Positions 1 to 46,639 of a stretch of 64,000 nucleotides of DNA are shown here, piece by piece. Each line of letters opens with the position of its first letter. Position 1 is the stretch's first letter. The notes under the pieces are model-generated. The model was not told the DNA's origin, did not search any database, and saw only the letters and a list, made by a program, of their open reading frames with translations. The stretch comes from Xanthomonas phaseoli pv. phaseoli. Its GTDB lineage: Bacteria > Pseudomonadota > Gammaproteobacteria > Xanthomonadales > Xanthomonadaceae. The stretch is from NCBI GenBank assembly GCA_022749655.1, contig CP094243.1, forward strand, positions 3,162,001 through 3,226,000. Reading direction: 5' to 3'. The position numbers and the translations under genes are program-made.

Positions 1-1866
1 GCGCGTGTCGCCAATCAGCAGGTGCTGGACCTGGGCATGAATTACAAGCCCGACGAGGCGCTCAAGGCACTGATGCAACAGGCCGCACCGGCGAACCAGC
101 AGTGGCAGGACGCGCTCGATGCGTATGCCGCGCGCCAGCGCAGCCGTGGCGCGGCAGCCTATGCCGACGCCAACGCCGCAATGGAGCGTGGCCGGGCATT
201 GCTGATCGCCGGCGGCATTGCGGTCGTGGTGATCAGCAGCCTGCTGGCCTGGTTGATCACCCGCAGCCTGACCCAGCCGTTGAGCCGTGCCACCCGTGCC
301 GCCGAGGCCATCGCCGAAGGCCGCCTGGACAGCGACGTGCACACCACCGCCACCGACGAGCCCGGCCGGCTGCTCAGCGCCATGGCCAGGATGCAGGCCC
401 AGTTGCAGCGTTTCTCCGGCGAAACCACGCGGATGATCGCGCTGCACGCCGACAAGGACGTGACGCACCGTATGCCGCAGGACTTCCCCGGCGTGTACGG
501 CGAGCTGAGCAAGGGCATCAACACGATGATGTTCGAGCACCTGGACGCCATCGTCGATGCCATCGAAGTGCTCAACGAATACGCCCGCGGCGATCTGCGC
601 CGCGATGCACGGCGCCTGCCGGGCAGCCGCGCGGTACTGCACGAATCGATGGATGCGGCCAAGGCCAGCCTGCTGGCGATCAATACCGAGATCCAGCGCC
701 TGGCCAGCGCGGCAGCGGCCGGCGACTTCAGCGCGCGCGGCGATGCGCAGCGCTTCGAGCACGATTTCCTGCGCATGGTGCAGGACCTCAACGCGATGAT
801 GGAGGTCAGCGACACCAGCCTGGGCAGCTTGTCGGCGCTGTTGCAGTCGATCGCCGCCGGCGATCTCACCGCCCGCATGCACGGCAACTTCCACGGTGTG
901 TTCGCCACGATGCGCGACGACGCCAACGCCACCACCGAACAGCTCACGCGCATCGTGATGCGGATCCAGGGCGCGGCCGGCAACATCAGCGCAGCCACCG
1001 GCGAAATCGCCGCCGGCAACCAGGATCTGTCGCAGCGCACCGAACAACAGGCCGCCAACCTGGAAGAAACCGCGGCCTCGATGGAAGAGCTCACCTCCAC
1101 CGTCAAGCAGAACGCCGAAAGCGCACGCCAGGCCAACCAGCTTGCCATCGGCGCCGCCCGCGTGGCGTCGCAGGGCGGCGAGATCGCCAGCAAGGTGGTC
1201 CAGACCATGAGCGGGATCGAGTCGTCGTCCAAGAAGATCGCCGACATCATCAGCGTCATCGATGGCATCTCGTTCCAGACCAACATCCTGGCACTCAACA
1301 CCGCGGTGGAAGCGGCGCGCGCCGGCGAACAAGGCCGCGGCTTTGCCGTGGTGGCCAGCGAAGTGCGCACGCTGGCGCAGCGCTCCACCGCGGCGGCCAA
1401 GGAGATCAAGAGCCTGATCGACGATTCGGTGCAACGCGTGGCCGAAGGCTCGCTGCTGGTGCACAGTGCCGGCACCACCATGGCCGAGATCGTGTCCAGC
1501 GTGCAGCGCGTCACTGACATCATGGGCGAGATCTCCGCGGCCTCGCAGGAGCAGTCGGCCGGCATCGAGCAGGTCAACCAGACCGTGACCCAGATGGACG
1601 AAACCACCCAGCAGAACGCCGCGCTGGTGGAAGAAGCCACCGCCGCCGCACGCGCACTGGAAGAACAGGCGCTCGGATTGACCGAGGCAGTGGCGGTCTT
1701 CAAGACCGACAGCAGCGACGCATCGCAGGCATCGCGTGCAGCATCACGGCGCCCGGCAGCAACGCCCGCGCTTGCGGCCGAGGCGACGGCAACCGGCCGC
1801 GCTCCCGCCAAGCTGCGCGCCGTGGTCGCCGCGCCAGGCAACGACAGCAGTTGGCAGGAGTTCTGA
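1..1866 (+). CDS. Methyl-accepting chemotaxis protein 1, 5'-truncated by window edge
   Basis: Inner-membrane chemoreceptor that signals to CheA/CheW. The frame is open from base 1, so the true start lies upstream; alignment with the paralogue at 5033 suggests about 125 N-terminal residues (first membrane segment and most of the four-helix ligand domain) are missing. Visible in order: end of the periplasmic helix bundle, TM2 ([20 protein letters not shown]), HAMP, then further HAMP-like repeats ([25 protein letters not shown]), and the cytoplasmic signalling hairpin ([20 protein letters not shown]). The tip reads [13 protein letters not shown] where the paralogues have [13 protein letters not shown]. 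The protein ends in SWQEF, a pentapeptide of the type that tethers CheR and CheB. The ligand is unknown. Confidence 0.93.
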
Positions 1867-1919
1867 ACAGATCGCCAGCACTGACTGAACCGGACGGGTC
1901 GGCAGCGCTGCCGGCCCGC

Positions 1920-1947
1920 TAAAGGCGTGCACGTCGTTAGCCGATAG
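1920..1947 (+). promoter_or_regulatory. Candidate sigma-28 (FliA) promoter of MCP2
   Basis: TAAA, 16 bases, then GCCGATAG, compared with the enterobacterial sigma-28 pattern TAAA-N15-GCCGATAA. It lies 27 bases before the ATG of the next chemoreceptor. The -10-like element is strong; the spacer is one base longer than the consensus. Confidence 0.55.
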
Positions 1948-1973
1948 CCTGCTTACATCCATGAGACGCATCA

Positions 1974-4448
1974 ATGACCACCTCACCCGCGCTGTCGCCG
2001 CAGACCATTCCAGCTTCGCCACGCCGCTGGACCAGCCGTTGGGACGACCTGGCCATCGCCAGGAAACTCGGCAGCATCGGCGTGCTTGCGTTGGTGGGGC
2101 TGGTCATTCCGGTGCTGCTCTATAGCGGCAAGCTCAACGAAAGCGTTGCCATCAGCAGCAACGAATTGCGCAGCTATGCGCCGCTTGGCCAAATGCTGGG
2201 CCTGATCACCGACCTGCATGCAGCCCACGTAGATCGCGGCAGCGCCGCCAAAGACGCCGCGCAGCGCGCCGAGCGCGATCTCGCCCAACTACTCGCCACC
2301 ACGGCCGGCATGCCCGGCTTCGAGCGCAGCCAGAAGCAATTGCTGGCCCTGCAGCAGCGCCATGTATCAGGGGCCGCCGCGGAGGGCTACGCCGCCGTGA
2401 GCGAACAGGCCTTTGCCGCGCTCGATGCATTGCGCGACGACAGCCAGCTGGTCTACACCCCGTACATCGAGAGTTACCACCTGGTGGTGTCCACGCTGAT
2501 CTACAGCCCCGAGACCACCGAATCGCTGACCCGTCTGGACGCCGCCAGCGACCCCTCGCAGGCGGGCGACAGCCGCGCCATGCTGCGCGAGCAGCTCGAT
2601 CAACTTGCTCGAAACCATGTGCGTTTCCGCCATGAGCTGGACAAGGCGATGGGCTTGCTGGAACAGCCCGACCCCGCGCTGGCCGATGCCGCCAAGGCCG
2701 AAGCCACCCAGGCAAGCGCCGCACTGGCCGCACTGGGGTCCGCCCTGCACGGCAGCGATGCCAAGGCGGACGCCCAGTGGAATGCCGCGCTCGATGCGCT
2801 GGGCCAGACCATGCGTGACCTCAGCAATGTCTCGCTGCAGGCGCTGCAGCGGCAATCCGAACGTCACCTGGTCGACGCACGCAACGCGATGTGGCAAGCG
2901 ATCGCCGGCCTGTCGGTGCTGGCGCTGCTGATCGCCGCGCTGTGCTGGTACACCTTGTCGCGCCTGACGCGCAATGTGCGCCGCGCCGCGACGGTGGCCG
3001 CCAATATCGCGCAGGGTCGGCTGGACGATCAGGTCAGTGCCGCCGGCCGCGACGAAACCGGTCAATTGCTCGACACCATGCGCCAGATGCAGGGGCAACT
3101 GCAGCGCGTGCTCAGCGCGCAAAGTGAAATGGCGCAGCGCCACGATGCCGGCCAGATCAGCTACCGCATGCAGGCAGACAGTTTCCCCGGTGCCTACGCC
3201 ACCATGGTGCACGACACCAACGCGCTGGTGGGCTCGCACATTGCGGTCAAGATGAAGCTTGCGCAGATCATGTCGCGCTACGCCATCGGCGACCTGAGCC
3301 AGGACATGGAGCGCCTGCCTGGCGAAAAGGCCGTGCTCACCGACACCATGGATACCGTCAAGGCCAACCTGTCGGCGATGAACAGCGAGATCAAGCTGCT
3401 TGCGCAGGCCGCCGCCAATGGCGATTTCAGCGTACGCGGCGACGCACAGCGCTTCCAGTACGATTTCCGCGCAATGGTGGACAGCCTCAATCAGTTGATG
3501 GCCACCGCCGATGCGAACCTGCACGCGCTCTCGACGGTCCTGCAGGCCATCGCGGCGGGCGACCTGACCGCCCGCATGCACGGCGACTTCCATGGCGTGT
3601 TCGCGCGCATGCGCGACGATGCCAATACCACCGTGACCCAGCTGGCCAATATCGTCGGGCGCATCCAGCAGTCCACCAATGCCATCAACGACGCCGCCAG
3701 CGAAATTGCCACCGGCAATCAGGACCTGTCGCAGCGCACCGAGCAGCAAGCGGCCAATCTGGAAGAAACCGCTGCCTCGATGGAAGAACTCACCTCCACC
3801 GTGCGCAACAACGCCGAACATGCGCGCCGCGCAAACCAGCTCGTGGTCGGTGCGGCCACGGTCGCCTCGCAAGGCGGTGCGGTGGTGGGTGAGGTCGTGG
3901 GCACCATGGCCGGCATCCAGGCAGCATCCAAAAAGATTGCCGACATCATCAGCGTCATCGACGGCATCGCCTTCCAGACCAATATCCTGGCCCTGAACGC
4001 AGCGGTGGAAGCGGCACGTGCCGGCGAACAAGGCCGTGGTTTTGCCGTGGTGGCCAGTGAAGTGCGCACGCTGGCGCAACGCTCGGCCGGTGCGGCAAAA
4101 GAGATCAAGCAACTGATCGAGGATTCGGTCAGCCGGGTCGAACACGGCAGCCAGCTGGTGGGCCAGGCCGGTCGCACCATGCAGGACATCGTCGATTCGG
4201 TGCAGAACGTCACCACCATCATGCATGAGATCAGCGAGGCCTCGCAGCAGCAGTCGCAAGGCATCGAACAGGTTGGCCAGACCGTCGCGCAGATGGATCA
4301 GGCCACCCAGCAGAACGCCGCGCTGGTGGAAGAAGCCACCGCCGCCGCCCGTTCGATGGAAGAGCAGGCGCAGCAATTGCGCGATGCCGTTTCGGTGTTC
4401 CAGTTGCAGGCCGAGCCTGCGCGCAGCCGCCTGGGCCACGCCGCCTGA
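1974..4448 (+). CDS. Methyl-accepting chemotaxis protein 2
   Basis: Transmembrane chemoreceptor of 824 residues. TM1 is near residues 35-52, an unusually long periplasmic domain (about 250 residues) follows, and TM2 is near 308-327. HAMP and additional HAMP-like repeats ([26 protein letters not shown]) lead to the signalling domain with the conserved tip ([20 protein letters not shown]). Unlike four of its neighbours it ends in GHAA and has no WxxF pentapeptide, so it probably depends on other receptors for methylation and demethylation. The ligand-binding part differs from the other receptors while the cytoplasmic half is nearly the same. It starts 107 bases after MCP1, behind a sigma-28-like site. 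Confidence 0.95.
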
Positions 4449-5032
4449 GGCAACGCCTGGCGGCAGGCCTGCCTGGGACGCGGCGCGCACGCCCGCGTCC
4501 CACCTGATTCAGTCCCCGCTGCCTGCATCTGTCAGGCAACGGCGTAGCGTTTGCACATCACCAACGCGCACGCGTTTGGCCCAGTGCCATCAGCAGCTCT
4601 CCCGCGAGTGCGCCGGTATCGATCGGCCCTGCGCGATGGCGCGGATGCAACCACACGCCAAGGCATCCGTCCTGTATCCAACTGCCTGAGCGGCTGTCAC
4701 GCCCGTGAGCAGGAAGTGAAGACGCGATCTTCCGGAGCCATCGGGATGCCCCTGCTGACAGGCATTTCCAGGCGGTTGTGCACGCCAGGCTCACCTCGGT
4801 GACGCCGAACCATACGCGTGGGGCCTAGCGAGTTCAGCAGCAGTGTCGGTGCGCCGTTACCAACCTCAAGCACGCGTACCTGCCCTGCAATCGCTGGCGT
4901 TGCGACCTTGGATGTCGCAACGCTCGATGGATCGGCTCGACGCGCGCCCGCTTCGGCGCCATCCGCGTACTCCGTACGCCTCGCCGCTCAGCGCACTGCC
5001 CCTTTCCTGCCCATCGCTCTCGAGATCCCAAC
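4449..5032 (+). other. Intergenic region between MCP2 and MCP3
   Basis: 584 bases without a credible gene. Short open frames on both strands lack family motifs. I found no clear sigma-28-like site and no strong terminator here, so how MCP3 is transcribed is not visible. Confidence 0.5.
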
Positions 5033-7294
5033 ATGACTGCTCTTCTTCAACGCTACAACGTCGGCAAGCGCCTGGGCTTTGCCTTCGGCACGCTGATCCT
5101 GCTGTCCTGCGCGCTGGTCGTCGCTGGCCTGTACACGCTGGCGCAGGCGCGCCAGACCCTGGATACGCTCACCAACCGCAACATGGTGATCGTCCAGCGG
5201 CTGCAGGAAATGAACAACGCGGTGTCGGTGATTGCCGTGCAGTTGCGCAATATCGTGTTGCCGACCAGCGATGCGGAGAATCGCCGCTTCGCTGCGATCA
5301 TCGAAGAGCAGCGCAGCATCTACAAGGAAGCACGCGACAAGCTCTACACCTTCTCGGCAACGCCTGCGGCCCAGGCGCTGCGTGAGAGCATCGACGCGAA
5401 CAACAAGGCGGCCCGCGCGCTCAACCAACAGGTGATCGACCTGGGTCTTGCCAACAAGAACGAAGAAGCCATGCCGTTGCTGTTGCAGCGTGCCGCACCG
5501 GCCACGCAGGCATGGCAGGACAAACTGCTGGAATATTCGGCGCTGCAGCGCCAGCGCGCCCAGGAAGCCAATGCGCTGGCCACCACGGCGATGGCCCGCG
5601 GCCGTGCCATGTTGATCGGTGGCGGCCTGGCGGTGGTGCTCATCAGCAGCGTGCTTGCATGGCTGATCACCCGCAGCCTGGTGGTTCCGCTGACGCGCGC
5701 CACCCGCGCCGCCGAAGCCATTGCCCAAGGCAAGTTGGACAACGACGTCAGCACGCACTCCAACGACGAAACCGGCCGCCTGTTGCACGCCATGGACGGC
5801 ATGCAGGGCCAGCTGCGCAACCTGATTTCCGCACAGCTGGGCATGGCCAAGCGCCATGAAGAAGGCCAGATCAGCTTCCGCATGGATGCCGGCGCATTCC
5901 CGGGCGATTTCGGCCGCATGGCCAACGACACCAACGAGCTGGTGGCCGCGCACATCAAGGTGAAGATGCAGACCATCCACCTGATCGAGCGTTATGCCAT
6001 CGGCGACCTCTCCGAAGATATGCAGCAGTTGCCCGGCGAGAAGGCGGCCATCACCGCGGCGATGAGCCAGGTCAAGCACAATCTGTCGACCATGAACACC
6101 GAGATCAAGCAGCTGGCGCACGCGGCGGCCAATGGCGACTTCACCGCGCGCGGCAATGCCGAGCAGTTCCAGTTCGATTTCCGCGTCATGGTGGAAAGCC
6201 TCAACACCTTGATGGCCACCGCCGACGGCAACCTGCAATCGCTCTCGGGCTTGTTGCAGTCGATCGCTGCCGGCGACCTCACCGCACGCATGAGCGGCCA
6301 GTACCTGGGTGTGTTCGCGCAGATGCGCGACGACGCCAATGCCACTGCCGAACAACTGGCCAGCATCGTCGGCCGCATCCAGGTCGCGGCCGACGCGATC
6401 GGCCTGGCCTCGGGCGAAATCGCCTCCGGCAATCAGGATCTGTCGCAGCGCACCGAACAGCAGGCCGCCAACCTGGAAGAAACTGCCGCATCGATGGAAG
6501 AGCTCACCTCCACCGTCAAGCAGAACGCCGAACACGCCAGCCAGGCCAATCAGCTCGCCATCGGCGCCGCTGCGGTGGCCTCGCAAGGCGGCGATGTGGT
6601 GGCAAAGGTGGTCACCACCATGTCCGACATCCAGGGCTCGTCCAGGAAGATCGCCGAGATCATCAGCGTCATCGACGGCATCGCGTTCCAGACCAATATC
6701 CTGGCCTTGAACGCAGCGGTGGAAGCGGCGCGTGCCGGCGAACAGGGCCGCGGTTTTGCGGTGGTCGCCTCTGAGGTACGCACACTGGCGCAGCGTTCGG
6801 CCGCTGCTGCCAAAGAGATCAAGCACCTGATCGACGACTCGGTCGAAAAGGTCGCGCAAGGCGCAACCCTGGTCGATCAGGCCGGTACCACCATGGCCGA
6901 TATCGTCGCCAGCGTGCAGCGCGTCACCAACATCATGGGCGAGATTTCCTCGGCCTCGCAAGAGCAGTATGCGGGTATCGAGCAGGTCAACCAGACCGTG
7001 ACCCAGATGGACGAAACCACCCAGCAGAACGCCGCGCTGGTGGAAGAAGCCACCGCCGCCGCACGTGCGATGGAAGAACAGGCGCAGCAGCTGACCGAAG
7101 CGGTGGCGGTCTTCAAGGTGGCTGCGCAGGCACCGGTGGCGCGCCAGTTGTCGGCCATTGCCAGGGCACCGGCCAATGCCCGCTTCGCACCGCGCCAGGC
7201 AGCACGCGTCACTCCAGCGGCCGCGTCACCACCTCGCAGTACTGCGAGCAACGCCACATCGGCCGCAGATCTGGGCGATTGGCAGGAGTTCTGA
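5033..7294 (+). CDS. Methyl-accepting chemotaxis protein 3
   Basis: Chemoreceptor of 753 residues. TM1 is near residues 14-36; a four-helix-bundle periplasmic ligand domain runs to about 190; TM2 ([20 protein letters not shown]) is near 194-214. HAMP and HAMP-like repeats ([25 protein letters not shown]) precede the methyl-accepting domain with a canonical tip. It ends in DWQEF, a CheR/CheB-tethering pentapeptide. The periplasmic region is clearly homologous to that of MCP1 and MCP4. The gene is followed by a strong rho-independent terminator, so it is probably a separate transcription unit. Confidence 0.95.
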
Positions 7295-7313
7295 TCGCAA
7301 AGACAGCGTCACG

Positions 7314-7349
7314 CACGACAGTCGGTTGCGAACGACTGTCGTGTTTATT
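7314..7349 (+). terminator. Rho-independent terminator of MCP3
   Basis: Perfect 11-bp inverted repeat, CACGACAGTCG at 7314-7324 and CGACTGTCGTG at 7333-7343, with an 8-base loop and a following TTTATT. It lies 20 bases after the MCP3 stop. Confidence 0.85.
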
Positions 7350-7384
7350 CCTGAGACCCAACTGTATCAAACATCCGAGCTCAC

Positions 7385-7411
7385 TCAATCGATTGCAGGC
7401 AGCGCCGATAA
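7385..7411 (+). promoter_or_regulatory. Candidate sigma-28 (FliA) promoter of MCP4
   Basis: TCAATCGA, 11 bases, then GCCGATAA. The -10 element matches the enterobacterial sigma-28 consensus at all eight positions and the spacing is canonical. It lies after the MCP3 terminator and about 90 bases before the MCP4 start. Confidence 0.7.
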
Positions 7412-7501
7412 CGCTGCTTTGGCGGCAAGCAAAGTGAGCGCCATGCGTCTTTCCAGCCTGTCAGCACAACCGCAATCCAACCTTCAGAGCCGAGCGATTT
7501 C

Positions 7502-9763
7502 ATGAACTCTCTTTTGCTGCGTTTCAACGTCGGGCCGCGCCTGGCTGCTGCCTTCACTGTGCTGATCTTGCTGTCCGGGTTCATCGCCTTCATCGGCTAC
7601 CGGGGGCTGACCTCTGCACGTGCGCTTGTGGATGCCTTGGTGCACCAGAACATGACCAAGATCCGCCTCTCCAACGACATGATGAATGCCAATTACGTCA
7701 TCGCCTCGGAGCTGCGCAATGTCGTTTTGCCGACCAGCGCCGAAGACAACCTGAGATTCATAGAATCCATCAAGCAGGCACGCGCCGACTACACCAAAGC
7801 GCGCGATGCGCTGTACGCCATTCCTTCTTCGCCGCAGGGCGTTGGCATCCGTGAGGAGATCGATCGCCTCGGGCAGCCCGTGCGCGACTTGAACAACAAG
7901 GTCGTCAACCTGGTGATGTCTGGCCACAGCGATGAAGCATTGCCGCTGATGCTCACCCAGGCCGCACCTGCGATGCAGAAATGGCAGGACAAGATCGGCG
8001 AGAACATTGCCCTTCAGGACAAGCTCGCCTCCGAAGCAGCCGAAGTGGCGCTGCAGTCGATGGACGATTCGCGCAAGTTGCTGGTCGGCGGTTCGCTGCT
8101 GGTGGTAATGCTGAGCGGCACGCTGGGCTTGCTGATCACCCGCAGCCTCACCCGGCCACTGAGCCGCGCCACCCGCGCCGCCGAAGCGATTGCCGAGGGC
8201 AAGCTCGATAACGCCGTGCATAGCGATGCCGGCGACGAAACCGGCCGCCTGTTGCAGGCCATGGACACGATGCAGTCGCAGGTGCGCAACCTGATCACCG
8301 CCCAGCTGGACATGGCCAAGCGCCACGATGCCGGCCAGGTGAGCTTTCGCATGGATGCCGGCACGTTTCCGGGCGACTATGGCCGCATGGCCGGCGACAC
8401 CAATGCGCTGGTCGACAGCCACATCCAGGTCACCGCGCGCCTGGCGCAGATCATGGGCCGCTATGCGATCGGCGACCTCAGCGACGACATGGACGCCCTG
8501 CCCGGCGAACAGGCCAAACTCACTCAGACCATGGCGCAGGTCAAACACAACCTGGCCGCGATGAATCGGCAGATCAAGCAGCTGGCGCAGGCCGCTGCGG
8601 CCGGCGACTTCAGTGCACGCGGCGACGCAGCGCAGTTCCAGTACGACTTCCGCATCATGGTCGAGAGCCTCAACCAGCTGATGGCCACCGCCGATGGCAG
8701 CCTGCAGGCGTTGTCGGGCATGTTGCAGGCCATTGCTGCGGGCGATCTTACTGCGCGTATGGAAGGCCAATTCCAGGGCGTGTTCGCGCAGATGCGCGAC
8801 GATGCCAATGCCACGGTCACGCAACTGGCCGGTATCGTCGGGCACATCCAGACCTCGGCCGTCTCGATCAATGCGGCTGCCAGCGAAATTGCCGCCGGCA
8901 ACAACGACCTGTCGCAACGTACCGAACAGCAGGCCGCCAACCTGGAAGAAACCGCGGCCTCGATGGAAGAGCTCACCTCCACCGTGAAGCAGAATGCCGA
9001 AGGTGCACGCCAGGCCAATCAACTGGCGATCGGTGCGGCCAGTGTGGCCTCGCAAGGCGGCGAGGTCGTCGGCAAGGTCGTCGACACCATGGCTGGCATC
9101 CAGGCTTCGTCGAAGAAGATCGCCGACATCATCAGCGTCATCGACGGCATCGCCTTCCAGACCAATATCCTGGCCTTGAATGCGGCAGTGGAAGCGGCAC
9201 GTGCCGGCGAGCAAGGCCGCGGCTTTGCCGTGGTGGCCAGTGAAGTGCGCACGCTGGCGCAGCGTTCCTCGGCCGCCGCCAAGGAGATCAAGGATCTGAT
9301 CGGCGACTCGGTGCAGCGCGTCACCGACGGCTCGCAGCTGGTGGACCAGGCTGGCCGCACCATGGCCGAAATCGTCTCGTCGGTGCAGCGCGTCACCGAC
9401 ATCATGGGCGAAATTTCCGCCGCCTCGCAGGAGCAATCGGCCGGCATCGAACAGGTCAACCTCACCGTGACGCAGATGGATGAAGCCACCCAACAGAACG
9501 CGGCCCTGGTGGAAGAAGCCACTGCCGCCGCGCGCGCGATGGAAGAACAGGCACAGCAACTCACCGAAGCGGTGGCGGTCTTCAAGGTCGATGCGAACGC
9601 GCCGGTGGCACGCAGGTTATCGGCCATCGCCGGCGCCGCGCGCCACCAGCGGCCGGCAACGCGCCCAGTTGCACGTGCCGCCATGGCCGCGGCGACACCG
9701 CAGCGCGTGGCAGTCAGTGCAACCACGTCGACCGTTGGCGATGGCCATTGGCAGGAGTTTTAA
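7502..9763 (+). CDS. Methyl-accepting chemotaxis protein 4
   Basis: Chemoreceptor of 753 residues, the same length as MCP3. TM1 is near 12-34, a four-helix periplasmic domain follows, TM2 ([20 protein letters not shown]) is near 193-214, then HAMP, HAMP-like repeats and the signalling domain. It ends in HWQEF. It is collinear with MCP3 over its whole length, so the two probably arose by tandem duplication and diverged mainly in the ligand domain. A consensus-like sigma-28 promoter precedes it and a strong terminator follows, so it looks monocistronic. Confidence 0.95.
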
Positions 9764-16080: not shown

Positions 16081-18462
16081 ATGCAATGGATCAACAATCT
16101 GAAACTGATGCCCAAGCTGATGCTGGCGTTCGGCATCGTGCTGCTGATCATGCTCGTCCAGGGCGTCATCGCCTATTCGGGCCTGGCCTCGCTCAATAAC
16201 GTCACCCGCGACCTGGCTGGCAACACCATGTCCAGCGTGCGCGAGGCAGGCGATCTGCGCGGCATGCTCGGCGAATACCGGAATGCGGCCTACCAGAACC
16301 TGGTGCGCGCCAGCGACTCGGTCAAGCAGGAAGCCAAGGTCCGCGCCAAGAGGCTCAATGGCGAGATCGAAGCCACCATCAAGGGCTACCCGCGCCTGAT
16401 CGAAAGCCCGCAACAGAAGAAGCTGTTCGATGTGTTCGTGGCGGACTGGAAGAAGGCGTCGGCCTCCTATGCCAGCGTCGACGAAATGATGGAGCTGAAC
16501 CTGCCCGACGACGCCATCGACACCTTCGTCGGCGAGACCCGTACCCTGCATAACAAGGCCAAGGATTCGCTGGCTGCCTTGATCGCCGAAGACAACCTGC
16601 TCGCGCAGGCTGCCAAGACCAAGGCCGAAAAGGTCCACGCCACCTCCGTCACGCTGACCCTGGTGGTGCTGTTGATCGGCATCGCCGGCGGCCTGGGCCT
16701 GGCCTTCCTGTTCGCCCGTTCCATCGTCAAGAGCATGCGCAGTGCGGTCACCACGGCCACCGAAATTGCCGGCGGCAAGCTGGACGGCCAGATCAACGTG
16801 CAGGGCCAGGACGAAGTAGGCGAATTGATGCGCTCCATGCAGCGCATGCAGCGCGACCTGAAGGAACGCATCGAACGCGACCAGGAGATTGCCGACGAAA
16901 ACCTGCGCATCCGCACCGCGCTGGACAAGTCCTCGACCGGCACCTTCATCACCGATCCCGAGCGCGTGATGATCTACGCCAACGACGCCTTCAAGAAGAT
17001 CGTGGCGCAGTACGAAAGCAGCATCCGCCTGGCATCGCCCGAGTTCGATGCGAGCAAGGTCATCGGCCAGCACATCAGCTACCTGGGTTTGTCGGATGCG
17101 ACCGTGCGCAAGGCCATTGCCGCACTGGAACGCGATGGCGTCACCAGCTTCGAAGAGCGTTTTGGCGAAGTGGTGCTGGCGCAGACCGTCACCTCCATCA
17201 AGAACGAACAGGGCGAGACCAGCGGCGAAGTCTGCGAATGGCGCGACCGCACCATCGAAGTGCAGGTGGAAGAAGAAGTGGCCCGCATCGTGCGCGCCGC
17301 CGCCAGTGGCGACATGAGCGGGCGTGTGGAAACCGATGGCAAGCAGGGCTTCTTCCTGCAGCTGGCGCAGCAGCTCAACGGCTTGCTGGATGCCAATGCC
17401 GGCAGCCTGGAACAGATTTCGACCCTGCTGTCCGCGCTGTCGCGTGGCGACCTGACCGTGCGCATGCATGGCGAGTTCAGCGGCGTGTTCGCGCAGATGC
17501 GTGACGATGCCAATGCCACCGCCGAGCAGCTGGCCGACATCGTCGGACGCATCAAGCTGTCGTCCACTGCGATCAATTCGGCCGCTGGCGAAATCGCGTC
17601 GGGCAACAGCGACCTGTCGCACCGCACCGAGCAGCAGGCCGCCAACCTGGAAGAAACCGCCGCCTCGATGGAGGAGCTCACCTCCACCGTCAAGCAGAAT
17701 GCCGAAAGCGCCCGTCAGGCCAACCAGCTTGCCATCGGCGCCACCGGCGTGGCCTCGCAAGGCGGTGAAGTGGTGTCGCAGGTGGTCACCACCATGTCCG
17801 GCATCGAAGCCTCGTCCAAGAAGATCGCCGACATCATCAGCGTCATCGACGGCATCGCGTTCCAGACCAATATCCTGGCGTTGAATGCCGCAGTGGAAGC
17901 GGCACGTGCCGGCGAACAGGGTCGCGGTTTTGCCGTGGTGGCCTCCGAGGTGCGCACGCTGGCCCAGCGTTCGGCCGGTGCGGCGAAGGAGATCAAGGGC
18001 CTGATCGACGACTCCGTGCACAAGGTAGCCGAGGGCTCGGCACTGGTGCGCAAGGCGGGCGCCACCATGGCCGACATCGTGGCCAGCGTGCAGCGCGTGA
18101 CCGACATCATGGGCGAGATCTCTGCCGCTTCGCAGGAGCAGTCATCCGGGATCGAGCAGGTCAACCAGACCATCACCCAGATGGACGAAACCACCCAGCA
18201 GAACGCCGCGCTGGTGGAAGAAGCCACTGCCGCCGCCCGCTCGATGGAAGAGCAGGCGGGTCATCTGGCCGAAGCGGTGTCGGTGTTCAAGCTGGACGAC
18301 TCGGCGACGCAGGCGCCGCAGAGTGCGCGCGTCCGGCCGATCGCCTCGCGCCCGGTTGCAGTCAAAAGCGCCGCCAAGCCGGTGGCACGCGCAGCGGCAA
18401 GCGCGTCGAGGCCAGCCCAATCCCAGGCCGCGCTGGCCGACGGTAACTGGCAAGAGTTCTGA
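16081..18462 (+). CDS. Methyl-accepting chemotaxis protein 6 (with PAS domain)
   Basis: Chemoreceptor of 793 residues from the ATG at 16081. A GTG two codons upstream is less likely because the GGGGA ribosome-binding site is then too close. TM1 is near 10-31, a four-helix periplasmic domain of about 155 residues follows, TM2 is near 190-214, then HAMP, a PAS-like domain near 280-410 ([20 protein letters not shown]), another HAMP-like repeat and the signalling domain with a canonical tip. It ends in NWQEF, closest of all the receptors to the enterobacterial NWETF tether. The PAS region is related to that of MCP5. Confidence 0.95.
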
Positions 18463-40876: not shown

Positions 40877-42001
40877 TCAGGCATCCAGGCGTTTGGAACC
40901 TGCTGCCAGGCCGGCCTTCAGGCTGGCCTCGACGAATTCGTCCAGGTCGCCGTCCAGCACCTTCTGCGTATCGCTGCGTTCGATGCCGGTACGCAGGTCC
41001 TTGATGCGGCTCTGGTCGAGCACATAGTTGCGGATCTGGCTGCCCCAGCCGATGTCGGACTTGGTCGCTTCCAGGGCGTCCTTCTCGGCGTTGCGCTTCT
41101 GCACTTCCAGCTCGTACAACTTGGCGGCCAGCATCTTCATCGCGTTGTCGCGGTTCTGGTGCTGGCTGCGGCCGGTCTGGCAGGCGACCACGGTGTTGGT
41201 CGGGATGTGCGTGATACGCACCGCCGATTCGGTCTTGTTGACGTGCTGACCACCGGCACCCGAGGAGCGATACACGTCGGTACGCAGGTCGGCCGGGTTG
41301 ATGTCGATCTCGATGTTGTCGTCCACCTCCGGCGACACGAACACCGAGGTGAAGCTGGTATGCCGGCGGTTGTCCGAGTCGAACGGCGATTTGCGCACCA
41401 GCCGGTGCACGCCGATCTCGGTCTTCAGCCAGCCGTAGGCGTATTCGCCCTCGATGCGCACGGTGGCCGACTTGATGCCCGCCACTTCGCCACCGGAAAC
41501 TTCCATCAGCTCGGTCTTCCAGCCGCGCGACTCGGCCCAGCGCAGGTACATGCGCAGCAGGATTTCGGCCCAGTCCTGCGCCTCGGTGCCGCCAGCGCCT
41601 GCCTGGATGTCGACGAACGCGTTGGCGCTGTCCATCTGGCCGGAGAACATGCGCTGGAATTCCAGCTTCTCGACATGCGCCTGGTAGCTGTCCAGATCGG
41701 CGATCACCGCCACCGCAGTGTCTTCGTCCTGTTCGCTCTCGGCCAGCTCCAGCAGGTCGCCCGCATCGGCCAGGCCCGACAGCACATCGGCAATGCCGAT
41801 CACGGTCTTTTCCAGCATCGAACGCTCGCGGCCCAGGGCCTGCGCGCGTTCGGCATCGTTCCACACATCCGGGCTTTCGAGCTCCCGGCTGACTTCCTCT
41901 AGACGCTCTTTCTTGGCGTCGTAGTCAAAGATACCCCTGAGCGAGAGCACGCGATCGTTCAGATCGGTGATGCGCTGGCGGATCGGATTGGTTTCGATCA
42001 T
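40877..42001 (-). CDS. prfB: Peptide chain release factor 2
   Basis: 374 residues as read. Terminates translation at UGA and UAA. Shows the SPF codon-recognition motif ([11 protein letters not shown]) and the GGQ catalytic motif ([11 protein letters not shown]). Most bacteria synthesise RF2 through a programmed +1 frameshift at an internal UGA around codon 26. Here the region reads AGGGGTATCTTTGAC, in frame throughout, whereas the E. coli signal is AGGGGGTATCTTTGAC. With one more G (plus-strand C4 at 41934-41937) the frame would end at UGA codon 26 with the exact slippery CTT TGA C. So the natural gene probably uses programmed frameshifting. Confidence 0.94.
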
Positions 42002-43359: not shown

Positions 43360-44576
43360 ATGACCGAGCGCCGCCACGATATCGATGCCTTGCGCGTTTT
43401 CGCCTTCGCCCTGCTGATCCTCTACCACCCGTGGGCATGGCCTATGTGGCCGACTGGGGGTTCCACCTCAAGAGCGTGCACACGGCCGAGTGGTTGCAGT
43501 GGCCGATGATCGTGCTCAACCGGTGGCGAATGCCGTTGCTGTTCATGATCTCCGGCATTGCGATCGGGTTGTCGCAGCCGCAAGCCGCGCCCTGGCGCTT
43601 CGCACTGCGTCGCTGCGGGCGGTTGCTGCCGCCCCTGCTGTTCGGCATGTTCGTGGTGGTGGCGGTGCAGGCCTACTGCCAGGGCGTGAGCAACGGCAAG
43701 GTCGCCACCGGCTTCGGCAGCTTCCTGCTGCGCTACTGGCAGGTGCGCCCGTGGCCGGCCGGCAGTTTCGATGGCTGGGAACACGGCATCACCTGGAATC
43801 ACCTGTGGTACCTGGCCTACCTGCTGCCCTACACCGTGGCCTTGATGGCGCTGGTGTCGCTGGCCAAGCTGGTGCGGCTGCCGGCCTTACCGCCGCTTCC
43901 CGCCACAGTGGTGGTGCCGGCCCTGCTGGTGGTGCCGATCTTGTGGGAAGCGTTCTGCGTGATGTGGGTGATGCCGCGCCATCCGCCGACCCATGCGTTG
44001 GTCGGCGACTGGTTCGTGCATGCCGAATCGTTCCCGCTCTTCCTCTTGGGCTACCTGCTGGCACGCAGCGAGCGCTTCTGGCAGTTGGCCGTGCAACTGC
44101 GCTGGCTCACCCTGGTCACTGCGGTGCTGGCCATCACCACCGAGTTGGGCATTCGTTTTCTGGGCATGCAGGTGCAGCCGGCGCAGCTGCCGCCGGCACT
44201 GGCCGCACTGCCATGGCAAAACCTGGAACACGTCGCACGCGCGGCCTATACCTGGCTGGCGCTGCTGACCCTGCTGGGCTGGGCCAAGCAGCGTTTGAAC
44301 CGGCCGTTCCGCTGGCTGCCTTATTGCACGGACGCGGTGTTTCCCTGGTACATCCTGCATCAGAGCCTGATCATCGTGGCGCTGTACTGGGTGATGCCGT
44401 TGCAGTTGAACGCCTGGCTGGAACCGGCGCTGGTGATTGCCGCCACGGTGGTCGGCTGCCTGGCACTGCATGAGTACGTGATTCGGCGGGTGGGTTGGCT
44501 GCGGCCGTTGTTCGGCTTGCGTGGACGCACGCAAGCGGTCAGCCGCCGGCTCGGTGCTATGGCCGTTGCGTCGTAA
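43360..44576 (+). CDS. Membrane acyltransferase family protein, frameshifted near the start
   Basis: About 405 residues when restored. Acyltransferase-3 family: N-terminal DIDALRVFAFALLILYH with the conserved His after the first membrane segment, then roughly ten hydrophobic segments (PLLFMISGIAIGL, LLPPLLFGMFVVVAVQA, VVPALLVVPILWEAF, and near the C-terminus FPWYILHQSLIIVALYWV). Such proteins transfer acyl groups to envelope sugars. The frame breaks at 43428-43430 (CCC); one more C gives YHPVGMAYVADWGFHLKS. It corresponds in position to the unnamed ORF between rpfD and recJ of the X. campestris rpf cluster. Substrate unknown. Confidence 0.82.
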
Positions 44577-44900
44577 CAATCTGCGGGACGCACGTCGCTT
44601 GCAACGTGCGCTTCATTCGGCGGGCCATCTCAGGACGCGCCATCTGGCGCAATCCAGGTTGCGCGTCGCGGTGCGCTTGGAACCACCACTTGCCCCGCCC
44701 TGCTCGCGCCGCCGTACTGCTTGCCCCGAGCACTGCTTCGCTGATCAAGTGGCTAGCAGCAGGCGCGCTCGAAACGCTGGGCCGATGCCTGATCCGCTAT
44801 CGAGTTGCCCAGCGATCGCGTTCGGCAGCCTCCAGCGTATTTGCATGGGGATAACGTCAAGTACGAATGTCACCAACCTGGGCGGCGCCAGGACCGCAGA
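44577..44900. other. Convergent intergenic region
   Basis: 324 bases between the convergent acyltransferase and recJ. No gene, promoter or clear terminator was recognised. Confidence 0.5.
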
Positions 44901-46639
44901 TCAGTCGGTGACTGTCGCCGGCTCGCAATGCTCGACGATCAACTGCACCGCCGTGCCGCCGCGGTAGTCGTCGGCCACCAACCGATACGCAAGCCGCACC
45001 AGGCGCGCGGGGTCGCTGCCGCGCCAGCCATTGAACTGGATGGCATTGAGCGGTTCCGCGCGTCCGGGGCACCGCAGGGTCAACTTGAGGTGGCGTTCCT
45101 TGAGCACGCGGTGCTGCAGCACCTCGAACTGACCATCGAACAGCGGCTCGGGGAAGCCCTGCCCCCACGGACCGGCCACGCGCAGCGCTTCGGCATGCAG
45201 GTGATCGAGTTCGTGCGCGGCCAGTTCGCCGTCGCTGTGCAATTGGGCATGCAGCAGCGAGGCATCCACCATCGCCGTCACCTGCGCCTGGAAGGCCTGC
45301 TCGAACGTGGCCAATGCCGCATGCTCGATACTCAAGCCGGCTGCCATCGCATGGCCGCCGAACTTCTGGATCAATCCGGGATGCCGCGCATCCACCGCCG
45401 CCAGCACATCGCGGATATGCAGGCCGGGAATCGAGCGCGCCGAGCCACGCAACTGGCTGCTGCCCGGCTCGGCCGGCGCCAGCGCGATCACCGGACGGTG
45501 CAGGCGGTCCTTGAGTTTGAGGCCACCAGGCCGATCACGCCCGGGTGCCATTCGGCATCGAACAGGCATGCGGCGATCGGCAATGCGCCATCGCCATCCA
45601 GCACCACCTTGGCGACAGCGTGCTCGGCATCGTCGGTCATCAACTGCTGCACCGCGCGGCGTTCGGCGTTGATCTCTTCCAACGTGCCGGCGATCTCGCG
45701 GGCCTGGCTCCAGTCTTCACTGAGCAACAGTTCGATACCCAGCGCCATGTCCTCGAGCCGACCGGCCGCATTGAGGCGCGGCCCGAGCGCAAACCCGATA
45801 TCGCTGGCGCTCAGACGCGCCACATCGCGGCCGCTGGCATCGATCAAGGCACGCAACCCGATGCAGCCCTTGCCCTCGCGCAGGCGACGCAATCCGGCCG
45901 ACACCAGCGCACGGTTGTTGGTATCCAGCGGTACCAGATCGGCAACGGTACCGACTGCGACCAGATCCAGCAGCACCGGCAGGTCAGGCTCGGCGCGCTC
46001 GGCAAAGGCGCCGCGCGCGCGCAACACTTTCCGCAGCGCCAGCAACACATAGAAGATCACCCCGACCCCGGCCAGGGTCTTGCTGGGGAAGGTGTCTTCG
46101 GCCAGGTTCGGGTCGACGATCGCATCGGCCGGCGGCAGCGCCTCGCCCGGCAGATGGTGGTCGGTGACCAGCACCGTCCAGCCGCGCGCCTTGGCTGCGG
46201 CCACGCCGGCGTGACAGGCGATGCCGTGATCGACGGTGACCAGCACATCCGGCTGCAACGCTGCCAGTTCGTCGACCAACGCAGGCGACAAGCCATAGCC
46301 ATGCACCATGCGATTGGGCACGGCGTGGTGCACATCCAGCGCGCCGAGCATGCGCAAGCCACGCACGCCGACGGCGCAGGCAGTGGCGCCATCGCAGTCG
46401 AAATCGCCCACCACCAGGATGCGCCGTTGCTGCGCGATCGCATCGGCCAATAGCTCGGCGGCCACGCCGCTGTTGTGCAGCAATTCCGGCGACAACAACT
46501 GGGCCAGTCGCGGCTGCGCGCCTTGCGCATCGGTGACACCACGCGCTGCATAGATGCGGCGCAGCAGCGGCAACATGGTCTCGGGCCAACTGCCGGCCTG
46601 CCCGGCGGGGCGCCGGACGATCCGTGGAGGCGACGTCAT
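44901..46639 (-). CDS. recJ: Single-stranded-DNA-specific exonuclease RecJ, frameshifted
   Basis: 5'-to-3' ssDNA exonuclease of recombination and repair, about 579 residues when restored. DHH phosphoesterase motifs: VGDFDCDGATA, VTVDHGIACH and VTDHHLPGE. DHHA1 motif: KFGGHAMAAGLS. The frame breaks at 45516-45518 (plus-strand TTT; four expected): the raw reading ends NSRTACTVR at 45488, while one more base gives LVASKLKDRLHRPVIAL and continues to the end PATVTD. Its ATG overlaps the stop of rpfE by 4 bases, so the two are coupled. Part of the X. campestris rpf region. Confidence 0.92.

Follow-up and report, generated by a model that had tools for sequence, protein, structure and literature searches.

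A prfB reading frame left open by a four-G run in a Xanthomonas phaseoli pv. phaseoli assembly is probably a homopolymer artefact at an ordinary RF2 frameshift site

Autoregulation of peptide chain release factor 2 (RF2) by frameshifting within its own gene, prfB, is an established mechanism, as set out in the part of PMC12421855 available to us. That text counts an interrupted prfB in 64% of 12,753 genomes and describes uninterrupted genes as being without the SD-like and slippery elements. Loss by a single base is also on record: in P. fluorescens SBW25, 2/34 suppressor isolates of a prfB mutant that frameshifts poorly had gone from (G)5 to 4, which eliminated autoregulation (Table 1 of PMC13245932, a source likewise available in part). 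These two recent studies differ on why RF2 autoregulation is retained or lost. Very young natural losses in which the slip site is kept would be the best material for that question, but they look identical to a one-base homopolymer undercount. The word Xanthomonas is absent from the main text of both papers, and searches of the PMC open-access literature found no paper on prfB frameshifting in Xanthomonas, two matches being off the subject to judge by their titles.

The window, meaning the whole 64,000-nucleotide stretch of DNA analysed here, belongs to a genome that we label G000. Besides a 5.19-Mb contig, this genome has two small contigs, whose first 20 kb are closest to X. phaseoli plasmid records (99.5 to 99.8%). 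The prfB locus of the window is laid out as follows.

40877..42001, minus strand: prfB, peptide chain release factor 2, 374 codons, uninterrupted as assembled
41939..42001, minus strand: prfB leader, codons 1-21, near-identical in 30 aligned Xanthomonas loci
41934..41938, minus strand: AGGGG, SD-like element of the RF2 frameshift signal, one G fewer than in relatives (G run 41934-41937)
41924..41930, minus strand: CTTTGAC, slip site and shifted stop, letters intact but here read ATC TTT GAC

The product is RF2: it matches the NCBIfam prfB model TIGR00020 with 504.7 bits (cut-off 370), and it is the sole above-cut-off match in G000. From 41945 to 41925 the minus strand reads CTCGCTCAGGGGTATCTTTGA, and base 41924 is C, giving AGGGGTATCTTTGAC. 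Because the run at 41934-41937 holds four G, below the five-G length usual among relatives, the 374-codon frame is open, and the in-frame stop that would interrupt it ahead of the slip is absent as assembled. Every other letter of the signal is kept; the frameshift elements are not degraded. A sequence-only reading of this DNA had reported the four-G run, the retained CTTTGAC and the open frame, and both the letters and the ORF bear it out. It had likened the site to the E. coli signal, and the E. coli prfB that we fetched contains AGGGGGTATCTTTGAC and carries the annotation 'programmed frameshift'. It had also held that one extra G would place UGA at codon 26, in agreement with the five-G Xanthomonas rows, which read R-G-Y-L-UGA when codons are counted by eye from the conserved ATG. 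The 349 codons 3' of the frameshift site are open in 30/30 Xanthomonas loci compared.

With the E. coli-type RF2 +1 frameshift, the window thus has in common the gene, the leader length, the TAT spacer and the CTTTGAC letters; it differs, as assembled, in having four G rather than five, and hence no in-frame stop and no required shift. The SBW25 suppressor Iso-PRF-1, as described in the available part of PMC13245932, lost the same one base from the SD-like run, with the frame fused and autoregulation ended. That isolate, however, came out of laboratory selection on a prfB-CUA mutant and was directly sequenced, whereas the window keeps an intact slip codon and may owe its missing base to an assembly error. 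In long-established lineages such as Actinomycetota prfB is uninterrupted, like that of the window as assembled, but PMC12421855 describes those genes as devoid of the SD-like and slip elements, whereas the elements in the window are intact except for one G.

Among 35 Xanthomonas genomes, 33 carry the five-G form CTCAGGGGGTATCTTTGAC; the exceptions are G000 and one other, G381, and both read AGGGGTATCTTTGACTA. In this genus, then, five G is what is normally found and four G is exceptional. Five G also stands at 79/80 of the loci fetched across the family, the one four-G locus being that of Arenimonas daejeonensis (L031, NZ_CP042453.1, site about 1561-1578), whose contig position coincides with that of the match in genome G328. 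Of the four-G patterns searched, which detect one form of loss only, HGGGGTWTCTTTGAYTA (TA after GAY) matches 2/395 family genomes, G000 and G381, and the TT version matches 1/395, G328. In all, four G turned up in three genomes of the family, and the two besides G381 are of low completeness. In G328 (A. daejeonensis), completeness is 86%, prfB lies on a contig of more than 2 Mb, the four-G prfB is fused, and the fetched locus shows no frame break in prfB or the next ORF.

These comparisons bear on the idea of an old loss, by which an open frame would be normal for all or much of the genus and the frameshift never needed. The open frame taken alone fits this idea. Against it stand the five-G signal in 33/35 genus genomes and 79/80 family loci, and also the report that uninterrupted genes are without SD-like and slippery elements (PMC12421855, as available), both of which the window keeps minus one G. 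The five-G relatives refute an old loss, and we give it practically no credence.

Beyond the family, a census of the class with MGGGGTNYCTTTGAC returned matches in 17/369 genomes, with RF2 at only 2/17 loci, the window's own and that of G640. By eye, the G640 locus (L149) has AAGGGG in place of AGGGGG, with AAG GGG TAT CTT TGA kept and the frame interrupted. In E. coli, the prfB start was located in 5375/5426 genomes, and the weakest match in a 73-base ranking was BH100 MG2014, with four G, a single record from which no frequency follows. This complete genome (NZ_CP024650.2, L178 about 329-348) has the same fused four-G letters as the window and is annotated as a single-piece CDS. Searches for other copies of the window's prfB found none in plasmids (4 records, 0 Xanthomonas) or in viral contigs (7 pattern matches, 0 relatives).

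We then asked how well the assembly writes homopolymers in general. Runs were scored where the flanks match and where G381 and a second relative, G243, agree on length, over three regions (the whole window, G000:C1:1000000-1059999 and 2000000-2059999). The prfB run itself was left out of these counts, since relatives disagree on it (four G in G381, five in the other four relatives). At consensus lengths of at least 5, G000 is too short in 15/51 runs, compared with 0/35 in G381 and 0/35 in G243. G/C fives are short in 5/17 cases (4 by one base, 1 by two) and right in 12/17, A/T fives are short in 2/23, A/T sixes in 3/6 with one further run longer, and G/C sixes in 5/5. Short runs are nearly all right, with differences in 4/1735 threes and 1/238 fours. 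When the window only was compared with five relatives, 6/16 runs were short in the window versus 0/35 summed over the relatives, with one run longer in G303. G000 has a completeness of 90.46% and a contamination of 3.29%; 17 bean-blight Xanthomonas genomes are given as more than 99.6% complete, 13/17 of them short-read corrected, in the part of PMC8340869 available to us, whose table lists Illumina reads for the X. phaseoli strains CFBP 412, 6164 and 6546R.

ORF breakage agrees with this bias only in part. For ORFs of G354 that are intact in G303 (n=15), 3 are broken in the window, 0 in G381, 0 in G243 and 1 in G118. For ORFs of G381 intact in G354 (n=11), the window has 2 broken and 1 partial, and G243, G118 and G303 have 1 broken each; for ORFs of G243 intact in G354 (n=10), the window has 0 broken and 1 partial, G381 has 0 broken, and G118 and G303 have 1 each. 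A first count of split ORFs (10/31 one way, 8/34 the other) was set aside as confounded by spurious ORFs. Since 15/51 homopolymers are shortened, frame-based findings elsewhere in G000 are suspect.

The reading that we favor, and consider probable, is that the four-G run in the window is a homopolymer artefact and that the strain has an ordinary five-G site. Relatives carry the five-G signal and the assembly is biased toward short runs; we infer that the bias hit the prfB run itself. The source strain would have the five-G RF2 frameshift site usual for the genus, and the assembly would have written its G run one base short, as it did with many homopolymers of at least 5. Autoregulation of RF2 would in that case follow the E. 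coli pattern, with ribosomes stopping at the UGA of codon 26 when RF2 is plentiful and slipping +1 at CUU-U when it is scarce. An artefact is the likelier explanation because the assembly shortens 15/51 homopolymers of this length, and we place it where we do because a true five G has about a 1/4 chance of being written as four here and natural four G is rare (1/34 other genus genomes). Our weights for an artefact and for a real loss are judgements, not a computed posterior. In favor of an artefact are the 90.46% completeness of G000, the five G of 33/35 genus genomes and the 86% completeness of the four-G G328. Against it are a clean genome, G381, with the same four G in the same supported four-species prfB group (96/100), whose closeness would be coincidence if the window base were an error, as well as the 12/17 G/C fives that G000 has right and the 0/10 ORFs of G243 broken in the window. 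The sequence-only reading had offered a homopolymer artefact or a recent real loss; this was the right pair of options, and the shortened runs (15/51) tilt the weighting toward the artefact.

The second of these options holds that one G was lost recently in the lineage of the window, fusing the prfB leader to the body while the slip letters have not decayed. Synthesis of RF2 would then need no frameshift and be free of feedback; judging from P. fluorescens, the RF2 level would go up at little cost. We regard such a loss as possible but rather unlikely. The window prfB has an open frame that is otherwise perfect, a clean genome (G381) is in the same four-G state, SBW25 suppressors acquired an identical (G)5 to 4 change (PMC13245932, as available), and the E. 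coli BH100 MG2014 record has identical fused letters; opposed to these are the homopolymer bias of the G000 assembly and derived sites that join G381 to the five-G G243 (276) rather than the window to G381 (192) or to G243 (177). A real loss retains its standing mainly because G381 is close in the prfB tree.

Because G381 is 100% complete and shows no shortening (0/35 homopolymers), its four G in prfB is probably real, which would make it a natural case of one base lost while the slip letters stayed intact. Over the three regions, both G381 and G243 have about 94% identity to G000. In the window region, identity between G381 and G243 (94.16 or 94.5 in two comparisons) is not cleanly separated from that between the window and G381 (94.38); in the other two regions the corresponding values are 94.71 versus 94.21 and 95.27 versus 94.47. 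Near the site, derived sites for window+G381, window+G243 and G381+G243 number 1, 1 and 8 within 500 bases, 5, 3 and 11 within 1000, and 7, 15 and 17 within 2000; over the whole window they are the 192, 177 and 276 given above. Because derived sites pair G381 with G243, a loss in the window would be separate from that of G381, or would have been reversed in relatives.

A prfB tree of 30/35 Xanthomonas genomes, with the G run excised and the five genomes without a fetched locus omitted, requires two changes for the four-G state. In this tree G000 adjoins G092 (80/82), and G000, G381, G243 and G092 form a group (96/100). A tree constrained to hold G000 and G381 as a clade is 6.29 log units worse, and the AU test does not reject it (p 0.259). 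Common descent of four G in G000 and G381 is thus unsupported by the derived sites or the best prfB tree, with the clade itself not rejected. Because G381 is ungrouped with G000 in the best tree (a grouping that is not rejected), it cannot vouch for the window base. Should that base be genuine, its most likely origin is a loss independent of that in G381, or else a tract that has changed length in both directions. A further reading, which we hold to be very improbable, makes the G run of the small G000/G381/G243/G092 group a reversible slippage tract: natural lineages would switch from five G, with RF2 self-limited, to four G, with RF2 unrestrained, and back, the slip site staying ready, and the group would have been caught in losing or toggling autoregulation. 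The comparison with other Xanthomonas proposed from the sequence alone did turn up four G in one clean related species, G381; it also turned up five G in 33 other species, and G381 is not the window's neighbor in the best prfB tree.

Among the three four-G genomes of the family, G381 alone is a credible candidate for a young loss, the other two being at most about 90% complete, and surveys of uninterrupted prfB need to screen their assemblies for homopolymer bias. If the loss in the window were real, its mechanism would be one already known, and a natural case with the slip letters in place would serve as a helpful instance of it, without adding a new category.

Two further features of the gene were considered. 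In the 80 family loci, codons close to the site (those of the motif excluded) show no less synonymous variation than the rest of the gene, and a hidden constraint on the leader was rejected. A search for a compensating change in RF2 found no amino-acid change exclusive to G000 and G381; A75S occurs also in G092 and others besides the two four-G genomes.

At about 44001-46000 of the window, identity to G243 drops to 89.2% while that to G381 stays at 94.3%, and derived sites in common number 27 with G381 and 7 with G243. This stretch is likely a recombination tract near prfB. Elsewhere, at about 400-9700 and 17200-18300, several stretches of the window each have multiple counterparts on the G381 contig, at about 75-86%, a pattern that related genes in tandem would give.
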